Part shown: positions 3,564 through 48,027 of the stretch, one piece after another
How the letters are laid out: each line of letters opens with the position of its first letter
How positions within the stretch are numbered: the first letter of the stretch is position 1
NCBI GenBank assembly: GCA_004298385.1
Contig: SCTX01000138.1
Span: 1-64,000 of the forward strand
Direction of reading: 5' to 3'
DNA from: Betaproteobacteria bacterium
GTDB lineage: Bacteria; Pseudomonadota; Gammaproteobacteria; Burkholderiales; SG8-39
Length of the DNA stretch: 64,000 bases
Notes under the pieces: generated by a model
Databases searched by the model: none
What the model was told of the DNA's origin: nothing
Seen by the model: the letters and a program-made list of their open reading frames with translations, nothing else
Position numbers and translations under genes: made by a program

Positions 3564-4628
3564 ATGTCCGACACTACGACGCATTGCGATTACGCCGCGC
3601 TCACCCGCGCGATTAAGGTCTGGGGGCGCGAACTCGGCTTCCAATCCGTGGGCATCGCCGATGTCGACCTCGCCGCCGCCGAAGCGGGCCTCGCCGCCTG
3701 GCTCGCGGCCGGGTTCCACGGCGAGATGGATTATATGGCAAGGTACGGTTTGAAACGCGCGCGCCCGGCTGAACTCCGTCCCGGCACCTTGAGGGTGATC
3801 AGTGCACGTATGAACTACCGACCGCAGGCCGCCGAGGCCTGGTCGGTGATCGGCTCCGCGCACAAAGCCTACATCGCGCGCTACGCCACCGGGCGCGATT
3901 ATCACAAGGTGCTGCGCCATCGTCTGCGCCGGCTGGCGCGGCGCATCGAGCGCGAAATCGGCGTCTTCGGCCACCGCGTCTATACCGACTCGGCGCCGGT
4001 GATGGAGGTCGAACTGGCGGCGCGCAGCGGCCTGGGCTGGCGCGGCAAGCACACGCTGCTGCTTTCGCGCGATGCCGGCTCGTATTTTTTCCTGGGTGAA
4101 ATCTACACCGACCTGCCGCTGCCGGCGGACGCGCCGGTCGCAGATCATTGCGGCAGTTGCAGCAAGTGCCTAGCCATCTGTCCCACCGGCGCCATCGTCG
4201 CCCCTTACCGGGTCGACGCAAGGCGCTGCATTTCCTATCTCACCATCGAGCTGAAAGGCGCCATTCCGCCGGAATTGCGCCCGCTCGTCGGCAATCGCGT
4301 CTATGGTTGCGACGACTGCCAGCTCGCCTGCCCCTGGAACCGCTACGCCGAAGTGAGCAGCGAGCCGGATTTCCGCGTGCGCCACGGTCTGGACGATGCC
4401 GAACTCGCGCACCTGTTCGCGTGGAGCGAGAGCCAGTTCCGCGAGCGCATGGCCGGCAGCGCCATCCACCGCATCGGTTTCGAACGCTGGTCGCGCAACC
4501 TCGCCGTGGGCCTGGGCAATGCGCCCACCAGTGCCGCCGCAGTCGCCGCACTGCGATCCCGCGCGGACGATCCGTCGCCGCTGGTGCGCGAGCACGTCGC
4601 CTGGGCGATGCAGCGCCACGGAATTTAG
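3564..4628 (+). CDS. queG: Epoxyqueuosine reductase
   Basis: QueG performs the last step of queuosine synthesis, reducing epoxyqueuosine in tRNA to queuosine with cobalamin and two [4Fe-4S] clusters. The 354-residue protein has the DUF1730 cobalamin-binding N-terminal half, a conserved RSGLGWRGKHTLLL block near residue 155, then the ferredoxin motif CGSCSKCLAICPTGA near residue 196 and the second half of the cluster ligands in YGCDDCQLACPWN near residue 250. The ATG at 3564 is preferred over a TTG at 3558. The gene is divergent from tsaE with almost no spacer, so the two promoters must overlap coding sequence. Confidence 0.96.
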   Translation: MSDTTTHCDYAALTRAIKVWGRELGFQSVGIADVDLAAAEAGLAAWLAAGFHGEMDYMARYGLKRARPAELRPGTLRVISARMNYRPQAAEAWSVIGSAHKAYIARYATGRDYHKVLRHRLRRLARRIEREIGVFGHRVYTDSAPVMEVELAARSGLGWRGKHTLLLSRDAGSYFFLGEIYTDLPLPADAPVADHCGSCSKCLAICPTGAIVAPYRVDARRCISYLTIELKGAIPPELRPLVGNRVYGCDDCQLACPWNRYAEVSSEPDFRVRHGLDDAELAHLFAWSESQFRERMAGSAIHRIGFERWSRNLAVGLGNAPTSAAAVAALRSRADDPSPLVREHVAWAMQRHGI

Positions 4629-4631
4629 CTG

Positions 4632-4880
4632 ATTGAGTTGCGATTTTCGAGCGGACGAGAAACCGTCCGCGCGGATCGTCGATTGCGCACGGACGAAAAA
4701 CCGTCCGCACGCAATCGACGATCTTGTATAAAAACAAACTCAAGCCGTTGTGGTTTTTTCCATAACCGTGATTTTGGTACGGATGGAGTTTATCCGTACC
4801 AAAATCACGGTTGGCGCGCGCAGCGCGCAAGTTCATTCGTCGCATGCGATCGTACTCAAGACGCCGTATATAATCCGACA
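4632..4880 (+). repeat. Dispersed structured repeat, copy 1
   Basis: The gap between queG and the next gene is filled by a multi-hairpin element shared with 47661-47910. In order: AGTTGCGAT; hairpin A at 4651-4670 (7-bp stem GCGGACG/CGTCCGC); hairpin B at 4674-4723 with a 14-bp outer stem (4674-4687 with 4710-4723), a CA/CA internal loop and a 6-bp inner stem; a spacer beginning TTGTATAAAAAC; hairpin C, a perfect 21-bp stem pairing 4764-4784 with 4792-4812 around a 7-nt loop; and a GC-alternating hairpin near 4814-4828. Comparison with copy 2 shows paired substitutions in stem C. No open reading frame here looks real. Function unknown; a mobile non-coding element or structured RNA are both possible. 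Confidence 0.85.
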
Positions 4881-47570: not shown

Positions 47571-47600
47571 AACCCCGGGCTCAGACCCGGGGTTCTTTTT
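47571..47600 (+). terminator. Phasin terminator
   Basis: Stem AACCCCGGG/CCCGGGGTT with a 6-nt loop followed by CTTTTT. A second GC-rich hairpin (GCCCCGAGC/GCTCGGGGC) lies just before at about 47543-47563. Confidence 0.9.
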
Positions 47601-47660
47601 GTCTGGAACCGGGCAAAATCCATCGCGACAGTACTATACGTGGCGGCTCAACTCCCGCCC

Positions 47661-47910
47661 CCATTGTTGCAAAGTTGCGATGTTGCGCGGACGAAAAACC
47701 GTCCGCGCGGATCGCCGATTGCGCACGGATGAAAAAGCCATCTGTGCGCAATCGACGATCTTGTATAAAAACACCCCAAGCCGTTGTTGCTTTTCAAAAT
47801 AACCGTGTTTTCTGTACGGATGCCTTTTATCCGTACAGAAAGCACGGTTGGCGCGCGCAGCGCGCAAGTCCGCTCGCGGCATGCGACAGCATTTGAGAGA
47901 CCATATATAG
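47661..47910 (+). repeat. Dispersed structured repeat, copy 2
   Basis: Second copy of the element at 4632-4880. AAGTTGCGAT is followed by hairpin A (47685-47708, 9-bp stem), hairpin B (47710-47760), the same TTGTATAAAAAC spacer, hairpin C (47801-47821 paired with 47829-47849, 20 Watson-Crick pairs plus one G-T), and the same GC-alternating hairpin. Differences from copy 1 in stem C are G-C to T-A, T-A to C-G, and A-T to T-G, so pairing is kept. It lies between the phasin terminator and the Hsp20-Lon operon; the rest of that gap (47492-48027) holds no gene. Confidence 0.85.
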
Positions 47911-48027
47911 CTTCCGGGCTCAAAGCTTGTTTTAAGAATGCACCGCCCGCATATAAATCATGACCGGGATCAAGGGGACGGCGGCGGCGCGGTCCATGCT
48001 ATCCCAAACAAATGGGGAATGCTGACT

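Follow-up and report, generated by a model that had tools for sequence, protein, structure and literature searches.

Modular hairpin repeats with covarying stems and features of small mobile DNA in Burkholderiales

Two copies of a four-hairpin repeat and their empty sites

The window analyzed here, positions 1 to 64,000 of contig SCTX01000138.1 from a Betaproteobacteria bacterium (genome G000; L-numbers denote individual loci that we fetched), holds two copies of a short repeat. Copy 1 (4633..4870, + strand) begins within a few bases of a queG-type gene's stop codon; it lacks the left terminus, and its left boundary is placed to within a few bases beside the upstream stop codon TAG (4626-4628). 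Copy 2 (47637..47907, + strand) is a complete element of 271 bp with terminal inverted repeats (TIRs), and lies downstream of a phasin gene and its intrinsic terminator. This terminator, at 47571-47594 and directly 5' of copy 2, is present in aligned relatives too. The original prediction described both copies as lying just upstream of genes, which is true but incomplete, since both also follow an upstream gene.

Comparison of 4632-4880 with 47634-47912 showed that the predicted repeat pair is real, with both copies in the same orientation and identical at 189 of 243 aligned positions. Folding confirmed the hairpin order A-B-C-D in each (z = -9.44 for copy 1 and -9.35 for copy 2, against 200 shuffles). 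The parts of copy 1, all on the + strand, are hairpin A at 4651..4670, placed by the fold and the covariation alignment; hairpin B at 4674..4723, with about 22 pairs and an A-type loop; hairpin C at 4764..4812, also of about 22 pairs, whose tip is, family-wide, the reverse complement of the B tip; hairpin D at 4814..4828, a nearly invariant GC stem; and the right terminus (..GACGCCGTATA) plus TA at 4853..4872, located by end comparison. In copy 2, again on the + strand, the fold places hairpins A, B, C and D at 47685..47708, 47710..47760, 47801..47849 and 47851..47865, and end comparison places the left TIR (TACGTGGCG..) at 47637..47660 and the right TIR at 47885..47907. Copy 2 thus extends further left than first described, with its terminal repeat beginning at 47637. 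It is flanked by TA dinucleotides at 47635-47636 and 47908-47909 (no strand assigned), which are putative halves of a target duplication by analogy with another copy, L010. All three differences claimed between the copies in stem C were found, at pairs 8 (A-T to T-G), 12 (T-A to C-G) and 13 (G-C to T-A); the last two are full compensations, and the change at pair 8 yields a wobble.

We compared these sites with their orthologs in related genomes, and found copies present in some and absent from others. G000 and G008 carry copy 1 at its site, as does G001 as far as its contig reaches. In nine genomes the two flanks are just 6 to 37 bp apart, in G011 they enclose 129 bp of different sequence, and in G004 only one flank was found. 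Copy 2 is present in G000 and G011 and absent from G003, G005, G009, G010 and G013, in all of which both flanks were found, with the region too divergent for a clean junction. The clearest junction comes from L010, which is absent from G011, G005 and G004. The filled site in G000 reads GAC-TA-element-TA-GAATCC, and the empty sites read GAC-TA-AGATTC in G005, GAC-CA-AGATTC in G011 and GAC-CA-AAATTC in G004. L010 therefore looks to have inserted at a duplicated TA, a reading that concerns one copy and in which two of the three empty sites carry CA. Five other candidates for TA duplication (L156, L011, L050, L016 and L009) gave no clean case. At L016 (G000:C115), comparison with G011 gave no simple alignment, and what borders the element there seems to have been repeated or rearranged.

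A dispersed family with exchangeable ends

The repeat is far more numerous than the two copies originally noted: BLAST returned 71 matches in G000, partial and palindromic self-matches counted, and 45 copies from this genome could be aligned with their flanks. Nor is it confined to one assembly, as each of the 14 genomes of the genus that we searched contains at least one match. Of 27 genera sampled by DNA similarity, one other genus gave a weak match, and a covariance model of the B-C-D core detected it in 20 of 80 genomes, patchily distributed over 8 of 26 genera of the bacterial family. By this model G000 holds at least 36 core copies, and each of six genomes holds at least 36. The exact core pattern occurs in at least 99 stretches of named assemblies, and among the matches listed for it, 99 of 99 titles read Burkholderiales, Betaproteobacteria or Proteobacteria bacterium. 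Searches of plasmid and phage collections gave no match to the element, and searches of viral contigs gave no match to the exact core pattern. We regard this hairpin-repeat family as new, our literature searches having returned no published description of it.

Gene context was counted with a home-made gene caller, after clusters shorter than 100 bp had been excluded. None of 164 clusters lies wholly within a gene. Setting aside the 36 clusters with no near neighbor on one side, 128 have both neighbors within 400 bp, and these neighbors are codirectional in 83 cases, convergent in 38 and divergent in 7. Divergent pairs are rarer at clusters than among neighboring gene pairs in the window (7/128 versus 9/58, p = 0.04, with the same home-made caller). 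A stop codon lies within 60 nt of 113 of the 128 clusters, and copies occur in either orientation relative to genes.

The element type found in the window is bounded by imperfect TIRs of about 25 bp, with end logos [CT]TATACGTGGCGACTTAAAT on the left and ATTTAAGACGCCGTATATA[GA] on the right. We counted 480 distinct matches, with fragments among them; 54 extend to the left end, 77 to the right end and 31 to both, and most full matches are 270-280 bp long. Within G000, 13 left and 9 right end matches were detected at up to 3 mismatches in 20. We looked for longer coding elements at the end matches outside the aligned places in G000, and all were internally deleted copies. Internal deletions also mark L187, L155 and L156; L187 is missing the tip of hairpin C, yet what is left still forms a perfect hairpin. 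Another locus, L025, carries two elements end to end at 1490-1982, the first without a left end.

The hairpins also occur in other arrangements: C-D by itself, either carrying the right end or lacking it; arrays of the form C-D-spacer-A-B, with a tip spacing of 154; and a type with a spacing of 109. These other element types lack the window-type terminal repeats. A related repeat type, C-D-GGTTTTGGCAAAACC-A-B, is present at L260, L267, L269, L271 and L272. Sequence like GGCCGCAACCAAAATGACAAAAACATTCGCG borders the repeats in L260, L267, L271 and L272, and adjoins hairpin C in L276. In G089, a genome of another genus, the core carries either the TIR ends or a second, unrelated end pair. The second type, with ends like CTAGCCAAATATATTTG.. 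and ..GGTCGGCTGACTGACCGTCGA, was seen at L300, L302-L304, L307, L309-L311, L313, L316 and L318, and each of its ends seems, by eye, capable of forming a small hairpin of its own. The same core with different ends implies that the core outlives its ends. Given the quite different ends in another genus, movement of the core may depend on something other than the terminal repeats.

Covariation of the stems and what could cause it

The original prediction had named further copies lacking covariation above background as its refuting test. We aligned 80 copies over 54 pairs (4315 cells) and found that covariation held: 226 cells are changed on both sides, compared with 50.2 after shuffling and 7 to 21 in slid controls. 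Standard pairs fill 98.4% of cells versus 93.4% when shuffled, and 23 pairs show double changes versus 11.0. The variation is located in B and C; double changes are absent from every pair of hairpins A and D, so covariation says nothing on the pairing of these two. At 9 of the 22 pairs in stem C, each of the four Watson-Crick types was seen in two or more of 224 C hairpins.

B and C represent a single unit present in two opposite directions, with loops of opposite polarity. Their tips share the motif CGGATG-AAAAGCN-CATCCG in opposite directions, and this motif occurs at 77 places in G000 at up to 2 mismatches, compared with 0 for a reversed control. Loop polarity is kept across the family, with T-type loops in 195 of 199 C hairpins (2 inverted, 2 unclear) and A-type loops in 131 of 142 B hairpins (11 unclear, none T-type).

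Very stable folding, strong covariation and a position often just 3' of stop codons would all be expected of a structured RNA (a 3' UTR, leader element or small RNA), in which a transcript of one strand folds and serves the host at each place. Selection on one transcript strand predicts that G-T should exceed A-C among one-sided changes. Among rare one-sided changes, those found in at most 3 copies, the ratio of G-T to A-C is 21:20 in C and 18:17 in B, a symmetry that reveals no single selected RNA strand. When all one-sided cells are counted with the loop-closing pair excluded, C has 79 G-T and 32 A-C, and B has 38 and 97. The counts for C, taken alone, would fit a selected strand too. Most of the all-cell bias is supplied by pairs 15-16 (with G-T in 40 cells of C and A-C in 62 of B), and these recurrent changes indicate opposite strands in B and C; the loop-closing pair adds 97 G-T to 22 A-C in C, and 10 G-T in B. 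Opposite biases are expected of inverted copies of one unit on opposite strands, not of one RNA. Copies in both orientations relative to genes, the terminator that precedes copy 2, and sites that are empty in relatives also argue against a host RNA, and no Rfam family was matched at its gathering score. The sub-threshold matches were to miRNA models and Actino-pnp (best E 6.6e-07, 36.7 bits versus a gathering score of 90), and we attribute them to chance, since a long perfect hairpin can fit such models. The RNA or leader option of the original prediction is thus disfavored on orientation, on the symmetry of rare changes and on Rfam, and we consider it very unlikely.

To follow changes at fixed places, we compared G000 with G011 at 28 shared places, of which 24 passed filters, giving 801 pairs. 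There were 34 paired double changes, 3 other double changes and 64 one-sided changes (20 G-T, 18 A-C and 26 others). For 25 of the 34 paired doubles, some other copy is closer in linker and tail than the ortholog is; for 2 the ortholog is the match, and 7 fall at places outside the linker comparison. We therefore make no claim of in-place concerted change, since these 25 lie where linker and tail are closer to another copy. The same 25 favor gene conversion or recombination among copies, which would redistribute ready-made hairpin modules, so that covariation would record the versions moved. The exchange of ends and arrangements seen across the family also fits such shuffling, which is compatible with reading the repeats as mobile DNA. 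Shuffling makes no new paired versions, yet 9 of the 22 pairs in stem C occur in all four Watson-Crick forms, and we view gene conversion as a possible but somewhat unlikely explanation of the covariation.

Five strict ortholog pairs (L008, L019, L022, L049 and window copy 2), few and little diverged and with copy 2 tied with another copy, showed 16 one-sided changes and 2 double ones over 215 pairs. Conversely, in listed examples where copies resemble each other in linker and tail, both sides of stem C can differ at 3 to 5 pairs with 0 one-sided differences. Single copies seem to decay in place, and paired differences seem to distinguish separate copies, a pattern that fits selection among spreading copies plus module exchange. 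Compensation may also arise late, given how few and how little diverged the strict pairs are.

The both-sided differences without one-sided ones, together with the symmetry of rare mismatches, are also what mutation without selection might produce if template switching between the palindrome arms kept the stems paired with no function involved. Template switching between arms has been proposed for RNA hairpins, with inverted loops named among its marks (PMC8794818). Inverted loops are rare in our set, 2 of 199 in C and 0 of 142 in B, and constant arm-to-arm repair fits less well for this reason. The excess of one-sided changes in the strict ortholog pairs likewise counts against template switching, and we think it unlikely to account for the pairing.

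Probable mobile DNA and its likeness to known systems

We judge it probable (roughly 0.6) that these repeats are small non-autonomous mobile elements making up a modular family, REPIN/BIME- or MITE-like, and that their hairpins matter as DNA. The original prediction had offered a REPIN/MITE-like element with hairpins recognized by a transposase. Its mobile, non-autonomous part is supported by dispersal, empty sites, terminal repeats and one TA duplication; a hairpin-reading partner was not found among the Y1 and DDE_3/IS630-type loci of the genus. Y1_Tnp genes occur at 21 loci in 11 of the 14 genomes, and none of these RAYT-type loci is flanked by copies; one has a copy in its fetched flanks, on one side only. 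With 1 of 21 Y1 loci near a copy, we rejected RAYT mobilization. G002 holds at least 36 core copies, yet has no Y1 match in an assembly that is 89% complete. In G000, a lone transposase gene of the Y1 type (RAYT-like), L175 (G000:C14), has no element copy in its fetched flanks; several genomes of the genus contain Y1 genes of about this length. We also rejected an IS630 partner: G000 has no DDE_3 genes, and none of 12 IS630-type loci, in 7 of the 14 genomes, carries the element ends at up to 5 mismatches of 19.

In the mechanism we propose, the core would consist of REP-like hairpins, with A and B in one direction and C inverted, followed by the small GC hairpin D. In the window type, this core would sit within the imperfect TIRs and enter TA sites. 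Spread would be MITE-like, with a putative enzyme moving the element in trans and the hairpins forming in single-stranded or extruded DNA during movement. Copies with broken hairpins would leave fewer descendants, and stem sequence would be free to drift while both arms match. We infer that the putative enzyme would read the hairpins, and that selection during spread would keep the stems paired. A more specific version, which we hold to be rather doubtful, is that the enzyme would read the long-hairpin shape and loop polarity and not the stem sequence, so that stems would drift under a pairing-only constraint while several unrelated sets of ends carry the core.

The family offers a strong natural case of RNA-style covariation in apparent mobile DNA, and covariation alone is therefore no proof of a functional RNA. 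It also provides many hairpins that keep both their pairing and their loop polarity, at sites both filled and empty, which lets selection, template switching and gene conversion be separated as causes of compensatory change.

Several features recall REPINs and BIMEs: an inverted pair of related hairpins whose tips carry one motif in opposite directions with opposite loop polarity, many copies, mosaic arrays, a location on the 3' side of genes, and presence or absence between relatives. The intergenic setting, with codirectional or convergent neighbors (83 and 38 of 128), likewise resembles that of REPIN/RAYT systems. The REP definition in PMC3733652 calls for a GTAG or CGTC tag, conserved and unpaired, at one hairpin end and stems of 5-13 bp. 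The stems of our element, at about 22 bp, are longer than this range, no RAYT is flanked by copies, and one element type has TIRs with TA. Inspection by eye of the 80-copy consensus revealed no unpaired GTAG or CGTC tag, CGTC appearing only inside paired stems. Because both the tag and the RAYT association were sought and neither was found, we do not class the family as REPINs.

MITEs of the IS630/Tc1-mariner type have a TA target and terminal inverted repeats and lack a transposase gene; our element likewise has such repeats and no transposase gene, and its target may also be TA. It differs in that none of the 12 IS630-type loci of the genus carries its ends, and we know of no such MITE with a comparable hairpin core. 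We qualify the MITE label because no partner turned up among the DDE_3/IS630-type and Y1 loci of the genus, and one copy alone gave a clean duplication.

The starts of the TIRs may resemble those of Correia elements. Correia elements (CREE/nemis) of Neisseria are described as short and non-coding, with inverted-repeat ends and a target duplication but no established mechanism of mobilization, and as falling into length classes of 104-108 and 153-157 bp (PMC2649163). Our element is similar in being short and non-coding with inverted-repeat ends, and differs in its length of about 271 bp. It is further set apart by its several internal hairpins, its other hosts and the exchangeability of the ends around its core.
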